Below are positions 13,283 through 60,716 of a DNA stretch of 64,000 nt, piece by piece. Origin of the DNA: Deltaproteobacteria bacterium (lineage in GTDB: Bacteria; Desulfobacterota; Binatia; UBA9968); the NCBI GenBank assembly GCA_016193465.1, contig JACPSE010000058.1, forward strand, positions 1-64,000, in the 5' to 3' direction. Within the stretch, counting starts at the first letter, position 1. The number at the start of each line of letters is the position of its first letter. The translations under genes were made by a program, and so were the position numbers. The notes beneath the pieces were generated by a model that had not been told where the DNA came from, ran no database searches, and saw only the letters and a program-made list of their open reading frames with translations.

Positions 13283-15655
13283 TCAACCCAAGGCTTGCCC
13301 GGCGCTGACCCCGCTCTGCAATTGTCGGCGAATCACGAAGGTGAACCTGCTCCCCTCGCCTTCATTGCTGTCAACCCATATTCTCCCGCCATGGAGCTCC
13401 ACGATTTCCTTGGCAATCGTGAGACCCAGACCCGTGCTGCTGACTCCCTGCGGGGACGCTAAACTGACCTGCTCGAATTTTTCGAAAATTCTTTTCTGGT
13501 CTGCCTTGGGAATTCCAATCCCCGAATCCTGCACGCTGACGGCCACGTTAGACCCATCCACCACCCCGGACGCTAAATCGTCCGGGTTGATCTCCACGCA
13601 GATCTTTCCCCCTTCGGGAGTAAATTTGATGGCGTTGCCAAGGAGATTCGTCACCACCTGAGTCAAACGGTCCGCATCCGCCACTATAGGAACGGCCTTT
13701 TCGGGGTATACCTCCTCAATAGCCACCTGCTTGCTCTCTGCCCAGCTTCGGACCGTTTCCACGACATGATGCACCATGTCCCTAAGCTCAAAAGAGATGG
13801 GGTGCAGCTCTATCCTTCCGGCCTCCAGCTTGGCAACATCCAGGAGATCATTCACAAGACGCGCCAGCCGGGTGATATTGCGGTGCGCAATAGAGAGAAA
13901 CTTCTCCTGCTCAGGACTGACCTCTCCGACCTCTTTCCCCATAAGAAGGGACAAGGATTCCTCAATCGCCAACAGCGGAGTTCGGAGCTCATGCGAAACA
14001 TGGGCGACGAACTTTGACTTCGCTTCATCCAACTGTTTTTGCTTCGTGATATCGCTGAGGACCGACACCATACCCACGGTCTTACCTTCCTGATTCTCAA
14101 TCACAGCGGTGCTTGCCTGAACGATCCTCTGGGCGTCCTCGCTCGAGCTTTTCACTTCGATCTCTTTGGTAACGTGACCCTCTTCGTCTCGAAGAGGACC
14201 TTTGGCCAGAGCCAACGTGTGTTCCCCCTTCACCAGCTCGGGGATAGGAACGCCCTTGGCGCCCTTTTGATCTAGTCCCAGGAGTTTCTCCGCCGCCGGG
14301 TTCATGAACTGAATTTTGCCTTCCCCGTCCACGACCACCAGTCCTTCCCCGATGCTCCTGATTATAGTATCTACTCTTTCCTTCTCGTCCAGAAGCCGCT
14401 TTTTCTCGCGCTCCAGTGCGGCGGTTTGATGCTTGACCCGCAAGGCGAGTTCCTCCGCAAAGTGATCCCGGATGCGCCGTAGCTCTTCGAGCTCCTCCGG
14501 CGCAACCTCGACTTGGCCAGACTTCTTTGGCGCGCGCTTCTCCTCTACGGCCGCAAAAGCCCGATCCAAGTCCTTTTCGCCAACCCCCAATGCGCTCAGC
14601 CTTTCCCGCAGGGGCTCGATGAGCCGCTCGCGGATTTCTTTGCCGCGCAAAAATTTTGCCCCAATCTTGGCCAGCGAGGTCACAGCGCCGCCGCTTTCCT
14701 GGAATGCCTTGGTTATCAGTTCCAACTTGACCTCATCGGCGCACCGCTCCAATCTCGCGACCAGCTCTTCCACCGCCACTTTAAAGTCCCCGGGAACATC
14801 GGGACCCTCTACCGTCTTCTTGAACTCCTTGGCAAAGCGAGAGATGCGCGGCGAAAAATCTTTCCCCTCCTGGATCGAAGGCCGGGCCAAATGTTCCTGC
14901 AGGAAACGTCCCAGATCTTCCACAATCCGCTTCAGCGTCTCCAGGTCCTCTGCCCGCCGCAGGACCTCTCTAGCAACCAGCTCGGGCTTCTTCTCCACTT
15001 CATAGGCAAGCCGCTCGAGATCGAGAGTAAGCTCGATTTTTTCGCCGGCGCCCTTTAGAAGATGCTCGACCAGTTCCTCCATCCGCTCTATCTTGCGTCC
15101 TCGCCCCGCGGGTGCCGCCTTCTCTTTTTTCGCTGCTTCGCTTCTTTCACCTGCATCTCCACCCTCGCCTCCGCCTTGACCAACCCCTGACTTCTTGACC
15201 ACTGCCTCCTCTTCTTTAATGATCTGAATACGAGCGGCCCCGAGGCGGATGTGCTTCAATTTCGCTTCTTCAAAAACCTTCTTGAACCCCCCCATTTCTT
15301 CCAGAGTCTTTATCGGCGTAGCGATCACTTTGAAGAGCGAGTTAAACTCGTCTTCGGTGGCCCCTTGATCAAAGGTCAGACTCTCGATATGGAGCCGGTT
15401 GGTTTCACGCAAAAGCTCGGCAACCCCGGTCTTTTTATTGTCGAGAGCATGGTCGTTGACAACTAGCCGTCCTCCCACAAACGCCAAGACGAGGGCCGGT
15501 TCCGAGCCCACAACCACCTCAAGCCTGGCCAAAAAGTTTCGCACCGCAAGCTGCGCCGCCGGGTGCTTCTCAGAATATAGCCGGTACTGGCTCAGGACAA
15601 AGCTAAAAACCTTGATGACCTCCGCGTATTGTGTTTCTTTCCCCTGAGTTTGCAT
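13283..15655 (-). CDS. Cytoplasmic histidine kinase with PAS and a long N-terminal region
   Basis: A 790-residue kinase without membrane segments. Residues about 10-147 form a domain (VFSFVLSQYRLYSEKHPAAQLAV, FVGGRLVVND, HIESLTFDQGATEDEF) that I remember from other deltaproteobacterial signalling proteins but cannot name. A low-complexity Gly/Glu/Lys linker (150-187) and a helical region (190-420) follow, then PAS (425-540), HisKA with His555 (VAHVSHELRTPLL) and an ATPase domain with DSGIGIPKADQKRIFEKFEQ and STGLGLTIAKEI. Its ATG directly follows the stop of the GAF kinase (TAGATG, no gap), so the two kinases are coupled. No response regulator is adjacent. Confidence 0.9.
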   Translation of the reverse strand: MQTQGKETQYAEVIKVFSFVLSQYRLYSEKHPAAQLAVRNFLARLEVVVGSEPALVLAFVGGRLVVNDHALDNKKTGVAELLRETNRLHIESLTFDQGATEDEFNSLFKVIATPIKTLEEMGGFKKVFEEAKLKHIRLGAARIQIIKEEEAVVKKSGVGQGGGEGGDAGERSEAAKKEKAAPAGRGRKIERMEELVEHLLKGAGEKIELTLDLERLAYEVEKKPELVAREVLRRAEDLETLKRIVEDLGRFLQEHLARPSIQEGKDFSPRISRFAKEFKKTVEGPDVPGDFKVAVEELVARLERCADEVKLELITKAFQESGGAVTSLAKIGAKFLRGKEIRERLIEPLRERLSALGVGEKDLDRAFAAVEEKRAPKKSGQVEVAPEELEELRRIRDHFAEELALRVKHQTAALEREKKRLLDEKERVDTIIRSIGEGLVVVDGEGKIQFMNPAAEKLLGLDQKGAKGVPIPELVKGEHTLALAKGPLRDEEGHVTKEIEVKSSSEDAQRIVQASTAVIENQEGKTVGMVSVLSDITKQKQLDEAKSKFVAHVSHELRTPLLAIEESLSLLMGKEVGEVSPEQEKFLSIAHRNITRLARLVNDLLDVAKLEAGRIELHPISFELRDMVHHVVETVRSWAESKQVAIEEVYPEKAVPIVADADRLTQVVTNLLGNAIKFTPEGGKICVEINPDDLASGVVDGSNVAVSVQDSGIGIPKADQKRIFEKFEQVSLASPQGVSSTGLGLTIAKEIVELHGGRIWVDSNEGEGSRFTFVIRRQLQSGVSAGQALG

Positions 15656-19354: not shown

Positions 19355-20524
19355 CTAGCGCTGCTGGCTCAGGAGGTCGTAGATAAGATAATAGAACTTA
19401 ACCATCGAGGGGAGATAGACCGTCAAGAACTCCTTAGGAGAAAAACTCTTGCGCGCAGGATCCACATGGGTAAACAGCTTGAGGATTGCAACGTGCACCC
19501 TGCTCTGATCCTGCACGGCATCCGCCAGCCTGAGGCTCTCCGTATAGGGAATCAGAGGGTCCGTGCTCCCGTGACCGATCAGGAGATAGGCGCCGATCGA
19601 AGGAAGCACGGGGGCGAGCGAGAGCTTTTCTAAATATTCCCGCACCCGTGGATCAACGCTCTGCATCAGATCGTCCACGCGCCGGGGGTCCTCATTTGTC
19701 AAAAGTTCGTAGAGCTTCCTGCCGGCTGGAGTCAACCGGCTGACAAGCGGAAAAATCTCGTTTTTCTTTTTTTCCTCTTCCTTTGTGAAAATCTCTCTGA
19801 GGAGTCTCCGATCCCGCTCGTTTTGAACGTAATCCACGTTGTTCATAAAAAAGACCCATTTGCCGTAAGGCTCCGGCTTTAGGAAACCCTTCTCATCGCG
19901 GTACTCGTAGTGACCAGTCGTGATAAAGCGGATGACGTTGATGGGATCATAGTAGCCGCCGAAGGAAACCAGAAACTTGACTTGATGGCGAAGTGAGGGA
20001 TGCCCGGCCGCCATGAACGTAGGTCCGGCGCCGTAACTAAAACCCAGCAGCCCCATCTTGCTTTCATCCACTATCTCTTTCCTGGAAGCCAGGTAAAGAA
20101 ATGAGGCAACGATGTCATCCACATCGCTGAACAGGATCCGAAAGGACTTCATGCCTTTAAGCTCAGGGACCAGCACTACAAAACCAGAACGCGCCAGGGA
20201 GCGCGCGAAGCGAATCAGCCGAGGATCATCTTTGCCCGCCTCTATGATCCCGTGTGTGAGGAGTATAGCAGCCCGCCTTTTGCCGTCCGGCACGCGGTAC
20301 AGGTCCGCGGGGATCTGTTCGTCCCCTGTGGAAATCTGCACCCGCTCTGCTACGGGAACTGGCGTGACCCACGCCAGCGCCCCGTGATCGGGCTCATGAA
20401 CGGTTTTCTCGTCCAGAATATCGCGTAAAAACAGAGCAGTGACCGTCCCCAGCCGGATCTGAGGGAAAAAGACGACGAAGAGCAAAAGCAGGCAGCCGAG
20501 GATAAAAGAGAGCTTTCTTTTCAT
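19355..20524 (-). CDS. Membrane-anchored or exported alpha/beta hydrolase
   Basis: A 389-residue protein. Residues 4-30 are strongly hydrophobic (LSFILGCLLLLFVVFFPQIRLG) and act as signal or anchor. The alpha/beta hydrolase fold follows: oxyanion segment LLTHGIIEAGK near 88-97, nucleophile elbow GFSYGAG with Ser163, acid in GHGSTDPLIP (Asp322) and His353 in LFTHVDP, a complete triad. A charged helical insert (about 235-300) forms a cap. The substrate is unknown; dienelactone-hydrolase-like and acyl-hydrolase relatives exist. It sits between leuC and truA on the same strand. Confidence 0.8.
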   Translation of the reverse strand: MKRKLSFILGCLLLLFVVFFPQIRLGTVTALFLRDILDEKTVHEPDHGALAWVTPVPVAERVQISTGDEQIPADLYRVPDGKRRAAILLTHGIIEAGKDDPRLIRFARSLARSGFVVLVPELKGMKSFRILFSDVDDIVASFLYLASRKEIVDESKMGLLGFSYGAGPTFMAAGHPSLRHQVKFLVSFGGYYDPINVIRFITTGHYEYRDEKGFLKPEPYGKWVFFMNNVDYVQNERDRRLLREIFTKEEEKKKNEIFPLVSRLTPAGRKLYELLTNEDPRRVDDLMQSVDPRVREYLEKLSLAPVLPSIGAYLLIGHGSTDPLIPYTESLRLADAVQDQSRVHVAILKLFTHVDPARKSFSPKEFLTVYLPSMVKFYYLIYDLLSQQR

Positions 20525-20529
20525 GCCTT

Positions 20530-20588
20530 TTGCCTTTTTTTCTGTTGCCTGTTGTCTCTCGCCTGTCGCCTTCTTATCGTTGCCTTTT
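20530..20588. repeat. Intergenic word repeat (TTGCCTgttGCCT type)
   Basis: Repeated TTGCCT, GTTGCCTG and CGCCTGTCGCCTT words in the gap between truA and the hydrolase gene. The same family is at 29338-29403, 53105-53160, 56513-56627, 56888-56915 and 60688-60716. Confidence 0.55.
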
Positions 20589-29337: not shown

Positions 29338-29403
29338 AGGCTTGAGGCGGAAGGCGTGAGGCTTGAGAGACTGTTGCCTGTTGCCTACCGCCTCTCGCCT
29401 TCT
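29338..29403. repeat. Intergenic word repeat (TTGCCTgttGCCT type)
   Basis: AGGCTTGAGGCG, GGCGTGAGGCTTGAG and TTGCCTGTTGCCT words between the ilvC region and psd. Confidence 0.55.
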
Positions 29404-53104: not shown

Positions 53105-53160
53105 ATTTTTAATTTTGAGTTTTTAATTTTCTGTTGCCTGTTGCCTTTCGCCTGTTGCCT
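53105..53160. repeat. Intergenic word repeat (TTAATTTtga and TTGCCTgttGCCT types)
   Basis: AT-rich TTTTTAATTTTGAGTTTTTA words run into TTGCCTGTTGCCTTTCGCCT words between tolR and tolQ. Confidence 0.55.
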
Positions 53161-53948: not shown

Positions 53949-54013
53949 GTCAAATGGGGCCTGCCCCTTTAGCCAGGTAGTCAGCAGATTCACGCTTCAA
54001 GGAGCAAATTTTT

Positions 54014-55186
54014 ATGATCCGCAGGTTGGAAGAGCTGGATCTCACCGGCAAAAGGGTCTTTGTCCGGGTTGATTTCAATGTCCCGGTCAAAAAAGGCAAG
54101 ATTACGGAAACGCACCGCATTGAGAGCGTGTTGCCGACGCTGCGTTTTGTTCTCGCGCGGGCTGAAAAACTTCTGATTGCTTCGCACCTGGGACGGCCGG
54201 GGGGCAAAGCAGACCCGGAGTGGAGCCTCGCCCCGGTGCGCGATCACCTTGAGAAATCGCTCGCCTGCCAGGCAACTCTGGCGCCGGACTGTATTGGACC
54301 CAAGGTTGAGGCGCTGGTCAAGGATCCCGGCCATAAGGTGATCCTGCTCGAAAACCTGCGCTTTCATAAAGAGGAGGAGGCTAACGATCCGGCTTTTTCC
54401 CAAGCCCTTGCCTCCCTGGCGGATGTTTACGTCAATGACGCCTTTGGGACCGCGCATCGGGCGCACGCATCGACCGCCGGGATGGCAAAGTTTTTCCGCC
54501 AGAAGGGATCCGGTTTTCTCCTGCAAGAGGAGCTGGATTATCTCGGACGGCTCCTCTCCAGCCCGGAGAAACCGTTTGTCGCCATCCTGGGAGGGGCCAA
54601 GGTCTCGGATAAAATCGGCGTGCTGAAAAACCTGATTCCCAAAGTGGACTCTCTCCTCATCGGGGGCGGGATGGCTTACACCTTTCTCAAAGCAAAGGGG
54701 ATCTCTGTCGGGAAATCGCTGGTCGAAGAGGAGCGGATTCCCCTGGCGCGTGAACTCATCAGCCAGGCAGAAAGCCAGGGGATAGCGCTGTTGCTGCCCA
54801 CCGATCATATCGCAGCGGAGGAGGTCGAGAAGAACCCGATCACTACCGGGCTCAACATCCCGCCGGATCATATCGGGCTGGATATCGGTCCGAAAACAAT
54901 AGCCCAATTCCGTCAGGAGATCCGTAAGGCGAGGATCATACTATGGAACGGTCCCCTGGGTCTGTTCGAAGAGGAAAATTTCAGCCGGGGCACCCGATCT
55001 ATAGCCCAGGCCCTGGCCGAACATAGCGCCATTAGCGTCGTCGCCGGCGGAGACACGGTAGCCGCAGTCATGCAGGCGGGGGTCGAGGGCAAAATCACTC
55101 ACCTTTCCACCGGCGGAGGGGCGACGCTCGAGTTCTTGGAAGGGAAAACACTACCCGGCATTCAGGCCCTCGAGGAGCCGAGATGA
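54014..55186 (+). CDS. pgk: Phosphoglycerate kinase
   Basis: A 390-residue Pgk, ATP-making step of glycolysis. Motifs: GKRVFVRVDFNVPV, SHLGRPGG, LLENLRFHKEEE, VYVNDAFGTAHRAHAS, GGAKVSDKIGVL, GGGMAYTFLKA, WNGPLGLFE and VAGGDTVAAV with STGGGATLEFLEG. Length is normal. AAGGAG precedes the ATG. It is followed by tpiA after a 184-base gap with no supported gene. Confidence 0.97.
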   Translation: MIRRLEELDLTGKRVFVRVDFNVPVKKGKITETHRIESVLPTLRFVLARAEKLLIASHLGRPGGKADPEWSLAPVRDHLEKSLACQATLAPDCIGPKVEALVKDPGHKVILLENLRFHKEEEANDPAFSQALASLADVYVNDAFGTAHRAHASTAGMAKFFRQKGSGFLLQEELDYLGRLLSSPEKPFVAILGGAKVSDKIGVLKNLIPKVDSLLIGGGMAYTFLKAKGISVGKSLVEEERIPLARELISQAESQGIALLLPTDHIAAEEVEKNPITTGLNIPPDHIGLDIGPKTIAQFRQEIRKARIILWNGPLGLFEEENFSRGTRSIAQALAEHSAISVVAGGDTVAAVMQAGVEGKITHLSTGGGATLEFLEGKTLPGIQALEEPR

Positions 55187-55370
55187 GGCTTTTGGTCCTA
55201 CACTCGCACGGGAAAAGCGAGGGGCGCGAGGATAAGGGACGAGGGCATCGAGCGTGCAGACTCCGCAAAGTAAGAACAATTGGACCGGTATGCTCACAGC
55301 CTCAAGGCACAGGCCCATTGCCCTCGGCCCGAAAACTCGTGCCCCGAGCTAGGGCACCCCAGGAAGATTT

Positions 55371-56135
55371 ATGAAGCCTCTAGTCGTGGGCAACTGGAAA
55401 ATGCACGGCACCGAGAGCGAGGCCCCAACCCTGGCGCGCCAGATCCGCAGGGGAATGAGAGCCCTGCACGGAGTGGAGGTGGTTCTCGCCCCCCCATTCA
55501 CAGCGCTCACGGCTGTGCAGAAAGTTATCAAGGGAAGCAGCGTACATCTCGCCGCCCAGGACGTCCACTGGGAGGCAGAAGGCGCTTTCACTGGAGAAGT
55601 CAGCCCAAAGATGCTCAAAGAGGCGGGCTGCCGCTTCGTTATCATCGGCCACTCGGAGCGCCGCCATCTGTTCCATGAAAGCGACCAAACCGTAGCGAAA
55701 AAAATGCTCGCGGCTTTAGGCGCAGGGCTCCAGCCTATCCTCTGCGTCGGCGAGACATGGGAGGAAAGAAGGAAGGGGGAGACAACGCGGGTCATTGCCC
55801 GGCAACTCAGGGTCGCATTGAAGGGGCTGGGGAAAAGTGATATAAAAAAGATTGAAATTGCCTATGAGCCAGTTTGGGCCATAGGCACGGGTCGCAACGC
55901 CACCGCGGCTCAGGCAAGCGCAGTGCACCAAAGGATTCGCGGTTTTCTGAAAAGGCTCGTGGGTCAGGAGAGAGCCGCGAGCTGCCGTATTCTCTATGGC
56001 GGCAGCGTTAAACCCGACAACGCGGGCGGGCTTTCCTTGGCGGCGGAGGTCAACGGCCTATTGGTAGGAGGGGCAAGTCTTAAAGCGCGGGACTTTTTGG
56101 CAATCGTTCGCTGTTGTAATCCAATTTCGCTATGA
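55371..56135 (+). CDS. tpiA: Triosephosphate isomerase
   Basis: A 254-residue Tpi. Catalytic residues: Lys in VVGNWKMHGT, His in VIIGHSERRHLF and Glu in IAYEPVWAIGTG; the phosphate loop ILYGGSVKPDNAGG and LLVGGASLKARDF are intact. AGGAAG precedes the ATG. It overlaps secG by 4 bases. Confidence 0.97.
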   Translation: MKPLVVGNWKMHGTESEAPTLARQIRRGMRALHGVEVVLAPPFTALTAVQKVIKGSSVHLAAQDVHWEAEGAFTGEVSPKMLKEAGCRFVIIGHSERRHLFHESDQTVAKKMLAALGAGLQPILCVGETWEERRKGETTRVIARQLRVALKGLGKSDIKKIEIAYEPVWAIGTGRNATAAQASAVHQRIRGFLKRLVGQERAASCRILYGGSVKPDNAGGLSLAAEVNGLLVGGASLKARDFLAIVRCCNPISL

Positions 56136-56512
56136 TCACTTTTGTCATCATCATCCATGTCATCGTAAGCATCGGCCTGATACTGGTCGTTCTTCTTCAG
56201 ACCGGCAAAGGGGCGGACATGGGCGCGGTGTTCGGCGGCTCCAGCGCCACCATTTTCGGCAGCAGCGGCGCGGGAAACTTTCTTACCCGACTGACTACTG
56301 GCATGGCCATTGTCTTTATGATCACCTCATTGACTCTGGGTTACGCCTCAGGTAAGAAGCCTTCCTCCAGTGTCTTCGACAGGGGAAAAGTTGAGGCGCA
56401 ACAACCTGCTCGCCGGCCGCAGTCAGGACCGGCTACGACCCCTCAAGCCTCAGCGCCATCGGCAGCGCCACAACCCCAGACCCAACAGCCCGAGAAGCCC
56501 GCAAGTCCCTAG
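56132..56512 (+). CDS. secG: Preprotein translocase subunit SecG
   Basis: A 126-residue SecG. Two membrane helices (FVIIIHVIVSIGLILVVLLQTGKGADMGAVFGG, and FLTRLTTGMAIVFMITSLTLGYASG) with the conserved LLQ.GKGA...FGG.S motif between. The C-terminus is a Gln/Pro/Ala tail typical of the family. It assists protein export through SecYE. Confidence 0.94.
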   Translation: MITFVIIIHVIVSIGLILVVLLQTGKGADMGAVFGGSSATIFGSSGAGNFLTRLTTGMAIVFMITSLTLGYASGKKPSSSVFDRGKVEAQQPARRPQSGPATTPQASAPSAAPQPQTQQPEKPASP

Positions 56513-56627
56513 GCACGAGGCAACAGGCTTGAGGCGTCAGGGGAAAGGCTTAAGGAGGAAGGCGTGAGGCATGAGTTGAACCATCTTCCTCTTGCCTGTT
56601 TGCTGTTGCCTATCGCCTGTTGCCCTT
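56513..56627. repeat. Intergenic word repeat (GGCaacAGGC / TTGCCTgttGCCT)
   Basis: Plus-strand words GAGGCAACAGGCTTGAGGCG and GGCGTGAGGCATGAG, then their complement-type CTTGCCTGTTTGCTGTTGCC. The two halves can pair into a long imperfect hairpin between secG and the tRNA gene. Confidence 0.6.
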
Positions 56628-56636
56628 TTTATGTGT

Positions 56637-56723
56637 GCGAGGATGGCGGAATCGGCAGACGCGCTAGTTTGAGGGGCTAGTGCCAGAGATGGCGTAGGGG
56701 TTCAAATCCCCTTCCTCGCACCA
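56637..56723 (+). tRNA. tRNA-Leu (anticodon GAG)
   Basis: 87 bases including an encoded CCA end. Acceptor stem GCGAGGA/TCCTCGC, D-arm region GGCGGAATCGGCAGACGC, anticodon arm CTAGT-TTGAGGG-GCTAG with anticodon GAG, a long variable arm (TGCCAGAGATGGCGT) and T-arm GGGGTTCAAATCCCC. The long variable arm and A discriminator fit leucine. It reads CUC and CUU. Confidence 0.96.
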
Positions 56724-56731
56724 TACCTGCC

Positions 56732-56872
56732 TTGACACCCTGCTTTTTTAAGTGCGATAATCAGCCCTGTTTTCTGGCATTGTGAGGCCGGGGGACTGCC
56801 GGACTCTGGGGAGAGTCTCCGCATTATAGATCAACTGAGGGCCCGACTGGATCATTCCGGCCGGGCATTTTT
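56732..56872 (+). ncRNA. Candidate small RNA or leader with its own promoter and terminator
   Basis: TTGACA (56732-56737), an 18-base spacer and GATAAT (56756-56761) form a near-consensus promoter. About 75 bases after the predicted start, GCCCGACTGG/CCGGCCGGGC (56841-56866) plus ATTTTT is a good intrinsic terminator. Between them is a perfect GACTCT-GGGG-AGAGTC hairpin (56802-56817) next to GC-rich pairing segments. No open frame of note is inside. The transcript would be about 105 bases. It is either a free sRNA or a terminated leader of the kinase gene at 56921. Confidence 0.55.
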
Positions 56873-56887
56873 GCTTAAAGGGAGCTA

Positions 56888-56915
56888 TCAGTAATTGCTG
56901 TTGCCTATTGCCTAA
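56888..56915. repeat. Intergenic word repeat (GTTGCCTattGCCT)
   Basis: One short copy of the GTTGCCTATTGCCTAAC word directly before the kinase start, where a ribosome binding site would be expected; none is obvious. Confidence 0.5.
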
Positions 56916-56920
56916 CTGAC

Positions 56921-59900
56921 ATGAAGCTACGCTCCCATCTAATCATTCTTGTGGTCGCTGCGCTGCTGCCGGTGCTGATCTTTGCCAGCGTGATAATCGC
57001 GGTGTTCGACAAACAGCAACGGGCCACTGTCGAAAACCGGCTGGTAGACACGACCCGCGCCCTCTCGCTCGCCGTAGATCGCGAGGTCGCGGCTTGGGCC
57101 AGCACCCTGCAGGCGCTCGGCTCCTCGAAGCACCTTGATTCCGGGAATCTGAGCGCGTTCCGCGTGGAAGCGGCGCGGGTCTTAAAGACCCGCAAGGACT
57201 GGAACAATATTCTGCTCACCGACTCAGAGAGCCGCCAGCTTCTAAACCTCTTCCTCCCTCTCGGCTCCCCTTTGCCTTCCGTTGGGGATCTGGAACAGTT
57301 CCAACAGGTCATCAAGAGCTCTCAACCGGTCGCTTCTGATCTCTTCTTGGGTCGCGTGTCCCGCAAGCATCTGGTCGGCGTAGCCGTGCCTGTCGTTCGC
57401 AATGGAAAGGTCCGATTCGTCTTGGCATCAAGCACGTCGCCAAACTCGCTGCTGCAAATTCTCGCGCAACAGGATATACCGCCCGAGTGGCTTGGGACCA
57501 TTATCGATAGAAAAGGGATCATCATAGCCCGCACGCGCAACATCGAGAAGTCTACCGGCAACCCCGCGATGTCGCTGCGTGACGCTCCAAGCGGAGACGT
57601 ACAAGAGGGGCTAGGGCGCGGGGTTACGGAAGACGGCACGGAAGTTCAGGTGACATTTCACCGCTCGGCACTTACCGGCTGGACCGTGCGCCTGGCGATA
57701 CCCGTGTCGGTTCTTGAGGCGCCGCTGCGCCGCTCGCTCTGGTTCACGGTGGTAGGAGGGCTTGCACTTCTCATTGTGGGCATTGTGCTCGCAATCGGCT
57801 TCGGCCAGCGAATCGCCAAGCCCATTACAGATCTTTCCTTATGGGCAGAGACCCTGCGAGGGGGCGAGAGGTCGCGCCTTAAGACCTCCCCGATAGCCGA
57901 AGTGAACCGGCTAGCGCAGGTGCTTCAAGATGCCACGGTCACCCGCAATCGAATAGAAGAAACCCTGCAAGAACAATCACGGCTGCTGGATCTTTACTTT
58001 AAATACGCGCTGAACCCGGTCGTGTTTCTAGACCGCGATTTCAATTTTATCCGTGTCAACGAGGCGTATGCCCGCGCCTGTCAGCGAGACGTCAATGACT
58101 TCCCGGGACACAACTACTTTGAATTCTACCCTTCGGACGCCAAAGTCATCTTCGAAGAAGTCGTCAAAACCAAGAAGCCTTTCCAGGCACTTGCCAGACC
58201 CTTTGCTTTCCCCGACCATCCGGAATGGGAAGTGACTTACTGGGACTGGACCCTGGTGCCGATCCTCGACAGTACCGGCGAGGTCGAATTGTTCGTTTTC
58301 TCCCTTAATGACGTAACCGAGCGCAAAAAGGCAGAGAAAGAGACCCAACGCCGTCTTGAATCCATCCGCACCCTCCATGCCGTTGCTGCCACTGCGAACC
58401 AATCCTTGGACCTCGAGGTTGTCTTAAATCAGTCGTTGGAAAGGGCGTTGGAAGTTCTCCAGCTTGATGCAGGGCAGATCTATTTAACCGATCCATTGAC
58501 TCAGACAGTCCGCCTGAGGGCACACCAGGGAATCGGCGCTGAATCCCCTCAAGCTCTTTCTCGCCGGCTCGGAGAAGGTATTATGGGTCAGGTCGCAAAT
58601 GGGGAGCATGCGGTCTCTGAAGATATACAGACTGATCCTTATTATCTCCGATTATCGGGACAAGAGCGGATGCCGGCGGCGGCATCACGGGCCAATGTCT
58701 CTACTCCTATCAAAGCCAGGGGAAAAACTATTGGGGTCTTAAACCTGGCCAGCTATCAGCCGCGCCGCTTTTCATCCGAGGAACTTGAACTGGCAACTTC
58801 CATTGCCGATGTGATCGGTGTCGCTGCGGAAAACGCCAGACTGTATGAAGAGACCAAGCGCAGTTTGGAACGTATTCGGGTATTGAATGAAATCAACTTG
58901 GCTATCAGCACGAGTTTGGACCTCCAGACTGTCCTGGACATGCTCCTGGAAAAAACCAGCCTTCTCATTCCCCATGCAGCCAGCGAAATCAGGCTGTTAA
59001 ACAAGGAGACGGGGATACTGGAGCCGACAGCCTGCCGGAATATCAACGAAAAAGAATGGAAGGCGTTGAAGGCAGGGCGCGGGCTCGTCAAGATCGTGCT
59101 GGAAGCTAAAGCCCCTTTGATGGTTCTCAATGCTCCAGCAGACCCGCGGTCAGCAAATCCAGATTTTTTCCGTAAAGAGGGATTGGTCTCGTTTCTGGGA
59201 GTACCATTGGTGGCCAAGGAGGAGCCCCTTGGGGTCTTGGTTATCCTCACAAGAGAAGAGCATGAGTTCAGCGCTGAAGAGGTCGAATTATTCTCTACCC
59301 TTGCGGCCCAGGCAGCCATAGCGATTTACAATTCCCAGATTTATGAGCAGACAAGAAAACAGGCAAAGGAGCTTTTATCTTCCCGTCAACGGCTCCGTGC
59401 TCTCACGGCCAGGGTCATAAGCTCCAGGGAGGAGGAGGCCAGACGCATCGCCCGTGAGCTGCACGACGAGGCAGGGCAGCTTCTGGCCTCCGTCTATCTC
59501 GCTGTGGACGAGATCTCTCGCCAGGTACAACCTCCGGTCAAAGAAGATCTCCAAAGAGTAACGTGGCTGCTCGATCAAATCGAAGAGCAACTGCGGAGTC
59601 TGGCCCACGAGCTCCGCCCGACGATCCTGGACGACCTGGGGCTGCTTCCGGCGATCCAATCTCTAGCCCAACGATTCTCGAAACGAACAGGCATGGACAT
59701 CGCCTTGGAGGAAGTGCCAAAGCGGCGCCTTCCCCCTGCGATTGAGACGGCGCTCTACCGAACCGTTCAGGAGGCTCTCAACAACGTAACCAAACACGCT
59801 CAGGCGACCGCTGTTCGTGTTCAAATTCAGCAGGAGGACGGGATGGTTCGTTGCCTCGTTCTGGACAATGGGATCGGATTCGATGTGCCTGCGGTCTTGT

Positions 59901-60034
59901 CCCGAAGCGGCGCGGAGAATCTGGGATTCATCGGTATCCGGGAGCGAGTTGAGACTTTAAATGGAAAATTGCAAATCCAGTCGGCTCCCGGCCAAGGCAC
60001 ACAACTCTGCGTTACGATTCCTTTAGGGGAATAA
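56921..60034 (+). CDS. NarX-type membrane sensor histidine kinase
   Basis: A 1037-residue kinase. Order: membrane helix about 6-28, extracytoplasmic Cache-like sensor 30-270 (GRVSRKHLVGVAVPVVRNGKV, WLGTIIDRKGIIIARTRN), helix 274-295, HAMP 296-348, PAS 355-468 (ALNPVVFLDRDFNFIRVNEAYARACQ), two GAF domains about 498-645 and 668-810, HisKA_3 with His848 (RRIARELHDEAGQLLASVYL), and an ATPase domain (YRTVQEALNNVTKHAQA, DNGIGFD, GFIGIRERVETLNG). The HisKA_3 type pairs with NarL-family regulators, and one follows one base later. Confidence 0.94.
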   Translation: MKLRSHLIILVVAALLPVLIFASVIIAVFDKQQRATVENRLVDTTRALSLAVDREVAAWASTLQALGSSKHLDSGNLSAFRVEAARVLKTRKDWNNILLTDSESRQLLNLFLPLGSPLPSVGDLEQFQQVIKSSQPVASDLFLGRVSRKHLVGVAVPVVRNGKVRFVLASSTSPNSLLQILAQQDIPPEWLGTIIDRKGIIIARTRNIEKSTGNPAMSLRDAPSGDVQEGLGRGVTEDGTEVQVTFHRSALTGWTVRLAIPVSVLEAPLRRSLWFTVVGGLALLIVGIVLAIGFGQRIAKPITDLSLWAETLRGGERSRLKTSPIAEVNRLAQVLQDATVTRNRIEETLQEQSRLLDLYFKYALNPVVFLDRDFNFIRVNEAYARACQRDVNDFPGHNYFEFYPSDAKVIFEEVVKTKKPFQALARPFAFPDHPEWEVTYWDWTLVPILDSTGEVELFVFSLNDVTERKKAEKETQRRLESIRTLHAVAATANQSLDLEVVLNQSLERALEVLQLDAGQIYLTDPLTQTVRLRAHQGIGAESPQALSRRLGEGIMGQVANGEHAVSEDIQTDPYYLRLSGQERMPAAASRANVSTPIKARGKTIGVLNLASYQPRRFSSEELELATSIADVIGVAAENARLYEETKRSLERIRVLNEINLAISTSLDLQTVLDMLLEKTSLLIPHAASEIRLLNKETGILEPTACRNINEKEWKALKAGRGLVKIVLEAKAPLMVLNAPADPRSANPDFFRKEGLVSFLGVPLVAKEEPLGVLVILTREEHEFSAEEVELFSTLAAQAAIAIYNSQIYEQTRKQAKELLSSRQRLRALTARVISSREEEARRIARELHDEAGQLLASVYLAVDEISRQVQPPVKEDLQRVTWLLDQIEEQLRSLAHELRPTILDDLGLLPAIQSLAQRFSKRTGMDIALEEVPKRRLPPAIETALYRTVQEALNNVTKHAQATAVRVQIQQEDGMVRCLVLDNGIGFDVPAVLSRSGAENLGFIGIRERVETLNGKLQIQSAPGQGTQLCVTIPLGE

Positions 60035-60035
60035 C

Positions 60036-60686
60036 ATGAGAATCAGCACGCTTTTGGCCGATGACCACGTAATTGTCCGCGATGGGCTAAAGAACCTGCT
60101 GCTCCGCGAAGGATTTGATGTCATAGCCGAAGCGTCAGATGGCCAGGAGGCGGTACGGCTGGCAAAAGAGTTTCGTCCAGCCATAGCCGTTCTGGACATT
60201 TTCATGCCCTTGCTAAACGGTCTCGACGCTGCTCGGCAAATCAACAAAATCTCTCCTCAGACAAAAACAATCCTTCTTACCATGTATAACGAGGACCAGT
60301 ACGTTTTGGAGGCTCTCAAGGCCGGGGTCTGCGGCTATGTCCTGAAAACCCAGGCAAGCCAGGATCTCGTACAGGCAATTCGGAAGGTCTCACAGGGATC
60401 TATCTACCTTAGTCCCGCTGTTACTGGTGCTGTCGTAAAAGCATATTTGGAACAGGGAGAACATCCCTCTGCTCCCTCTGCTCCCTCTGCTCCTCTAACC
60501 CCTCGTGAGCGGGAGGTTTTACAACTTGTGGCCGAGGGTAAAAGCACCAAAGAAATTGCCCAGATTCTTGAGATTGGCGTCAAGACAGCCGAGACCCACC
60601 GGACAAACGTCATGAAAAAGCTCGACATCCACGAGGCAGCCGGCCTCGTCCGCTACGCCATCCGTCACGGTTTGATCCAGCCATAG
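60036..60686 (+). CDS. NarL/FixJ-family response regulator
   Basis: A 216-residue DNA-binding regulator, partner of the kinase just upstream. The receiver domain has D9/D10, phospho-acceptor D54 (IAVLDIFMPLLNG), T82 and K104 (YVLKTQ). The LuxR-type helix-turn-helix is at about 154-212 (LTPREREVLQLVAEGKSTKEIAQILEIGVKTAETHRTNVMKKL). The linker contains a 9-base DNA repeat three times (60465-60491) giving PSAPSAPSAP, an unusual expandable linker. Confidence 0.94.
   Translation: MRISTLLADDHVIVRDGLKNLLLREGFDVIAEASDGQEAVRLAKEFRPAIAVLDIFMPLLNGLDAARQINKISPQTKTILLTMYNEDQYVLEALKAGVCGYVLKTQASQDLVQAIRKVSQGSIYLSPAVTGAVVKAYLEQGEHPSAPSAPSAPLTPREREVLQLVAEGKSTKEIAQILEIGVKTAETHRTNVMKKLDIHEAAGLVRYAIRHGLIQP
60465..60491 (+). 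repeat. 9-base tandem repeat in the regulator linker
   Basis: Three exact CCCTCTGCT units, in frame, between receiver and DNA-binding domain. Copy-number change would lengthen or shorten the linker by three residues without a frameshift. Confidence 0.85.
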
Positions 60687-60687
60687 A

Positions 60688-60716
60688 CAGGCGATAGGCA
60701 TCAGGCAAGAGGCATT
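60688..60716. repeat. Intergenic word repeat (AGGCgatAGGC type)
   Basis: ACAGGCGATAGGCATCAGGC words after the regulator gene, complement of the TTGCCT family. Confidence 0.5.

Follow-up and report, generated by a model that had tools for sequence, protein, structure and literature searches.

Leader RNAs that end in an intrinsic terminator are used by several described regulatory systems. Leaders of the ANTAR type and the BglG/SacY RAT leaders form the 5′ UTR of signalling or catabolic genes; they have a promoter, hairpins and an intrinsic terminator, and a conserved hairpin is tied to the terminator. The ANTAR signature is a pair of hairpins whose 6-nt loops have A as the first and G as the fourth base (PMC3369931). 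Riboswitches with terminating platforms combine a covarying hairpin, a conserved unpaired linker and a terminator, and occur before many unrelated genes. Lastly, CsrA-titrating sRNAs are short promoter-terminator units that contain GGA words and lie near signalling genes.

The leader analysed here shares these outlines and departs from each system in a specific way. In contrast to ANTAR and RAT leaders, its strictly conserved part is the terminator hairpin itself, and none of the 98 leaders compared carries the two A1/G4 hexaloop hairpins (one such hairpin occurs in 15); the genome encodes one ANTAR protein. Unlike riboswitches, the leader family is small and simple, corresponds to no Rfam class and has no supported antiterminator. 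The likeness to CsrA-titrating sRNAs extends to the short promoter-terminator unit near signalling genes but not to the regulator, as no CsrA match was found in the genome by a search which was positive in three of 14 control genomes. From sequence comparison, we consider it probable that the element is the 5′ leader of a sensor-kinase gene and acts in cis as a transcription attenuator.

The window, i.e. the whole stretch of 64,000 nucleotides that was analysed, contains the following features at this locus:

56637 to 56723, plus strand: tRNA-Leu (GAG), upstream neighbour of the leader (ARAGORN; Rfam tRNA, 51.6 bits)
56732 to 56737, plus strand: −35 box TTGACA (sequence; promoter scan)
56756 to 56761, plus strand: −10 box GATAAT, with TG just upstream (sequence; promoter scan)
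56769 to 56796, plus strand: hairpin P0 (MFE fold)
56797 to 56823, plus strand: hairpin h1, GACTCT-GGGG-AGAGTC plus a TGC/GCA base (MFE fold)
56824 to 56840, plus strand: unpaired linker (MFE fold) with the word GATCAAC at 56829 to 56835
56841 to 56866, plus strand: terminator hairpin GCCCGACTGGATCATTCCGGCCGGGC (sequence, fold, recurrence), with a T-run at 56868 to 56872 behind it
56921 to 60034, plus strand: histidine kinase of 1037 aa (ORF and Pfam), the putatively controlled gene
60036 to 60686, plus strand: NarL/LuxR-like response-regulator gene (ORF; family assigned by eye), directly behind the kinase

The leader region (56724–56921) thus lies between the tRNA-Leu gene and the histidine-kinase gene, the position given by the first-pass annotation of this DNA. 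Open reading frames for pgk, tpiA and secG, named by eye from the ORF list, precede the tRNA. In Pfam, the kinase has the order dCache_1-PAS-GAF-GAF-HisKA_3-HATPase_c, where dCache_1 scores 42.5 bits, just under its cut-off of 45. By eye, a clear Shine–Dalgarno sequence is not found at the kinase ATG (56921). On the minus strand, a sub-threshold Rfam match to MIR444 (56516–56626; 22.8 bits versus 110 needed) covers the repeat-rich stretch before tRNA-Leu and is attributed to chance.

The first-pass annotation had described a near-consensus promoter followed by an intrinsic terminator, with the GACTCT-GGGG-AGAGTC hairpin between them and a predicted transcript of about 105 nt. These elements were all recovered. 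The promoter, TTGACA-18-GATAAT (56732–56761), agrees with the consensus at 11 of 12 positions and is the only site found in 3 kb, a length in which shuffled sequences yield 0.9 sites of at least 9/12. Transcription would start near 56768, and the predicted length and coordinates agree with an RNA running from there to the T-run. The GACTCT hairpin folds as part of h1. The terminator is laid out as GCCCG-A-CTGGA-TCAT-TCCGG-C-CGGGC followed by five T, and its central pair forms with a probability of 0.99 in the fold. Folding of the 109-nt RNA from the presumed start beats chance only modestly (−43.4 kcal/mol, z −2.1, with 5 of 200 shuffles equally good). The window terminator (56841–56872) is absent from the list of a simple terminator scan. 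Its pattern occurs once in the window against 0.01 expected with three mismatches allowed. Much stronger evidence than folding comes from the recurrence of the hairpin behind promoters in the same genome and in other genera.

Within its own genome, a search with 56724–56920 found two further places, at positions 15127 and 16384 of one other contig (G000:C103). Over 73 nt (15127–15199) the former is 81% identical to the window copy, and the similarity does not end at the terminator but continues in the direction of the kinase start. By eye, the kinase-like frame that follows the former copy seems to be broken early; a second leader and kinase gene follow 1.2 kb further on. Among 58 relatives searched with 56637–56920, short pieces of the leader were matched besides the tRNA. 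The pattern CCCGACTGGATCnnTCCrGyCGGG, with at most two mismatches, was found in seven of the 25 genomes from the window's family, where a reversed control pattern gave 0 hits, and in 10 of 148 genomes of the class; the three outside the family each have two mismatches, and the window terminator has none.

We assign copies to the leader family by the terminator hairpin GCCCG(G)ACUGGnUCnnCCAGCCGGGC or a close variant, which the window copy contains. Thirteen copies of the hairpin were aligned, and most of them lie behind a sigma-70-like promoter and before a gene. The word GATCAAC of the linker is common to some window-type copies in the alignments. In two relatives (G012 and G010) the copy sits between tRNA-Leu and a sensor-kinase gene as in the window; in other relatives the place behind tRNA-Leu looks different. 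A covariance model built from nine window-type copies (R3) scores these nine at 65–88 bits and the best copy of another sub-form, described below, at 45 bits. Most window-type copies are followed by a gene for a dCache kinase, a PAS kinase or CheW; for two of the short proteins scanned there, a Pfam match was not found.

A model of the terminator alone (R1) found further copies, including a better conserved sub-form that can be written yGGCUGGGUC-nnnn-GAUCCGGUCACAUCUUUGAUUC...GCCCGGACUGGnUCUCCCCAGCCGGGC-U-run. The model of this sub-form (R2, match limit E 0.001 in the class search) matched 137 times. Of the 143 class genomes searched, 20 have matches, namely 19 from the window's family (of 25) and the single one of the sister family; the 117 others have none. 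Genomes contain up to 23 matches, and the window's own genome has 21. In a phylum sample of 395 genomes, searched at 1e-5 with stricter filters, only the own genome was matched (0 of 394 others). An exact 20-mer of the sub-form was found in 13 stretches of named genome contigs, all of which carry an R2 match. Eleven are labelled as Deltaproteobacteria MAGs, one as Thaumarchaeota and one as Ignavibacteria; the latter two labels (L195 and L200), each on a contig with a family leader, may reflect binning errors, or transfer. The named relatives with the leader are groundwater and other environmental MAGs. Viral carriage was considered and dismissed: the single 20-mer match in a viral contig lies inside a phage reading frame, has no RNA-model match and is put down to chance.

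The annotation had recognised no known riboswitch class, and rightly so. Rfam returned only the tRNA and two sub-threshold matches for window positions 54000–60000 (E up to 5), and only a sub-threshold CRISPR repeat, no family, for 13 loci of the related sub-form (E up to 1). The covariance models for known riboswitches, T-boxes, other leaders and sRNA families were thus without a match. Within the accessible text of open-licence papers, no description of the leader family was found. Apparently, the leader-RNA family is uncatalogued and confined to one group of uncultured bacteria. Two irregularities were seen among the copies. At one locus (L166, G014:C481), three leaders occupy a short stretch before genes for small secreted proteins, two of which look duplicated. 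Four others (L091, L173, L178, L186) have a CCTGCC..GGCAGG palindrome within h1 or in its place, which resembles an inserted small repeat.

Later counts refer to 98 copies, which remained after one reverse-strand match and one fragment were dropped from 100 aligned matches. Information is low in the upstream flank (0.02–0.06 bits per column, 160 to 51 nt before h1) and rises at the promoter. Inside the unit, it reaches 1.0–1.1 bits per column in the h1 arms, 0.86 in the linker and 1.3–1.5 in the terminator arms, and from 21 nt behind the unit it is 0.01–0.04. Conservation is therefore limited to the promoter, the RNA and its terminator. A promoter scoring at least 9/12 precedes 23 of 97 copies (3.8 expected), and in five it reaches at least 11/12. 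An intact terminator, defined by at least 8 of 10 pairs and five T in seven, is present in 67 of 97.

Head-to-tail arrays of a heptanucleotide, TTGCCTr, are scattered over the window (23 matches of the word versus 2.8 expected):

20523 to 20571, window: TTGCCTr array
29374 to 29393, window: TTGCCTr array
53127 to 53160, window: TTGCCTr array
56592 to 56625, window: TTGCCTr array
56901 to 56913, window: TTGCCTr array
56511 to 56530, minus strand: TTGCCTr array
60689 to 60715, minus strand: TTGCCTr array

The same word is found 25–100 nt upstream of the leaders, with 54 occurrences (7.4 per kb) in 27 of 98 elements; between −600 and −200 its density does not exceed 0.11 per kb. The last repeat of 16 elements stands exactly 17 bp before the −10 box, which is most often TATTTT, as if the repeat supplied the −35 box in the leader family.

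These upstream repeats in some copies, the up to 23 copies per genome and the words GGCTGGG and CCCAGCC near the two ends of the RNA part would all suit a dispersed repeat of the MITE or REP kind which carries a promoter and lands before genes by chance. We regard this origin as very improbable. Conservation is bounded by the promoter and the T-run, the copies are strongly divergent (97 of 100 are kept at an identity limit of 88%) and h1 covaries, which is not expected of a young repeat.

The covariation of h1 is pronounced: 748 cells are paired against 682.8 expected (88.9% versus 81.2%, z 13.9) and 56 are doubly changed, whereas slid controls give z −0.4 and 1.3. Covariation is absent from the terminator (88.0 versus 87.3% paired, z 1.8), though it is the most conserved part. 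Both z values come from shuffles that treat the copies as independent, with relatedness uncorrected. In addition, the larger alignment (A4) was fitted to the R2 structure and leans towards h1 and the terminator alike, yet excess pairing appears in h1 only. An alignment of 14 sequences alone gave no clear result on covariation; the larger one gave the result for h1. The mutual-information ranking is dominated by the split into sub-forms and served as a pointer only. As the terminator is conserved in sequence without covariation, it appears to be held at the sequence level, beyond the need of a mere terminator. Such a constraint on the sequence, and not on the fold alone, points to a specific reader.

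The missing covariation of the terminator hairpin (z 1.8) may also be read in another way. An ordinary promoter and terminator could have spread with duplicated kinase genes and their leaders, and the terminator would then be a fixed, unregulated brake. The similarity of the C103 copy beyond the terminator and the decay of part of the copies are in line with this. However, the hairpin is kept across copies while the flanks are not (0.01–0.06 bits per column), and it precedes unrelated genes, where an ordinary terminator would be free to change its sequence. We thus give duplication a small chance of being the whole explanation.

The window copy itself is a weak member of the family. Against R2 it scores 28.6 bits (E 0.0004 in 304 kb), and it is not among the R2 matches of the class search at E 0.001. 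Its h1 stands where the covarying h1 is found in the wider family, and the two show no detectable sequence similarity. When the other sub-form was used to build a profile of h1 plus linker, this profile missed the window copy and gave a single weak hit among the window-type copies, a hit that 25 of 2000 shuffles matched. When the upstream halves were left out in turn, six of nine window-type copies were recovered by the rest, above all 500 shuffles; the half belonging to the window was not recovered. Hence, of the stem conservation that the first-pass annotation asked for in relatives, the terminator hairpin is conserved and the upstream stems of the window show no detectable similarity. By these comparisons, the link of the window copy to both sub-forms rests on the terminator hairpin, as does the link between the sub-forms.

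The annotation left undecided whether the element controls the kinase by attenuation or acts alone as a small RNA; the family comparison favours attenuation, and a role in trans is kept as a rival. Downstream genes were called with a home-made codon score that misplaces some starts. As raw counts by this score, 76 of the 85 copies with a called downstream gene share its strand (13 of 98 copies have no call), and 66 of 83 share that of the upstream gene. Orientation alone is weak evidence because the genes on both sides are mostly co-directional. Distances are more telling. In 30 of the 76 same-strand cases a start codon lies within 60 nt of the terminator, 23 of them with a Shine–Dalgarno-like word; this leaves hardly any room for another promoter, so that read-through would be needed. 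In the window, 48 nt separate the T-run from the kinase ATG, and the promoter scan lists no promoter-like site there.

These distances bear on the alternative in which a stand-alone sRNA of about 105 nt acts in trans, the kinase having its own signals or receiving incidental read-through. A strong promoter and a terminator do frame a discrete unit, in many copies of the wider family the distance to the next called start exceeds 100 nt, and the linker of the other sub-form, CACAUC..UUGAUUC, is unpaired and conserved. Nevertheless, the close starts, the lack of a listed promoter before the kinase and the common functional kind of most genes that follow window-type copies make this unlikely to us.

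For the wider family, Pfam domains were counted behind 64 leaders, some entries adjusted, out of 76 downstream references, with far and duplicate ones excluded. ORF6N and TctC were found five times each, dCache_1 four times and alanine dehydrogenase/transhydrogenase three times; molybdopterin oxidoreductase, DUF7718, DUF378 and NMT1 occur twice each and CheW once.

A promoter, a GC-rich hairpin with a T-run and a gene without a further promoter, which are among the marks of attenuator leaders in general, are found together in the window and in the family; a further mark is an antiterminator that excludes the terminator, or factor-dependent read-through. For the attenuator that we favour, the following course is proposed. 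RNA polymerase would start near 56768 at the strong sigma-70 promoter and transcribe P0 and h1. By default, it would stop at the conserved hairpin (56841–56872) and release an RNA of about 105 nt; such a discrete RNA is the expected outcome of termination. The terminator would be kept from acting under some condition, and transcription would then continue into the kinase gene (56921) and probably the response-regulator gene (60036). Its strictly kept sequence suggests for the terminator hairpin a role as the target of a trans-acting factor or as a partner in an alternative pairing; neither ANTAR nor CsrA finds support as the reader. The promoter, the hairpins, the terminator, the family and its placement before genes are shown by the sequences; termination, read-through and the signal behind them are inferred.

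Alternative GC-rich pairings had also been put forward in the annotation. Candidates exist, but covariation in the family does not support them. In the most obvious antiterminator, the strands of h1 and of the terminator are swapped (h1 5′ with terminator 3′, h1 3′ with terminator 5′). This exchange showed no covariation (z 0.2 and 1.1). In 77 of 97 sequences the swapped state has no advantage in stability, and for the window copy it is unfavourable. The strands are complementary, and the strand-swap antiterminator is retained as no more than a possibility. A leader peptide was considered; an open frame ending at UUACAUUAG, noted by eye in one copy, is not common to the other sub-forms.

The series of covarying hairpin, conserved unpaired linker and terminator, seen ahead of a wide variety of genes, would also fit a riboswitch proper, in which P0, h1 and the linker bind a small signalling ligand directly and this binding controls the terminator. 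We doubt this reading. Rfam offers no known class, the architecture is very simple, the most conserved part is the terminator instead of an aptamer, covariation supports no antiterminator and the upstream half of the window copy is not detectably conserved.

More tentatively, the attenuator reading can be extended to the whole genome. Up to about 20 leaders per genome might form a regulon whose terminator hairpins are read by their sequence, either by a trans-acting factor or through an RNA strand swap; sensor-kinase, chemosensory, solute-binding-protein, transhydrogenase and ORF6N genes would thereby be switched together. We hold this to be possible but rather doubtful; if true, it would represent a new class of sequence-specific terminator control. 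If the attenuator reading is right, these bacteria possess an uncatalogued leader-RNA family which joins a covarying hairpin to a sequence-conserved terminator before many unrelated genes. With the covariance models and the copies, a defined group of leaders is available in which a common signal can be sought.
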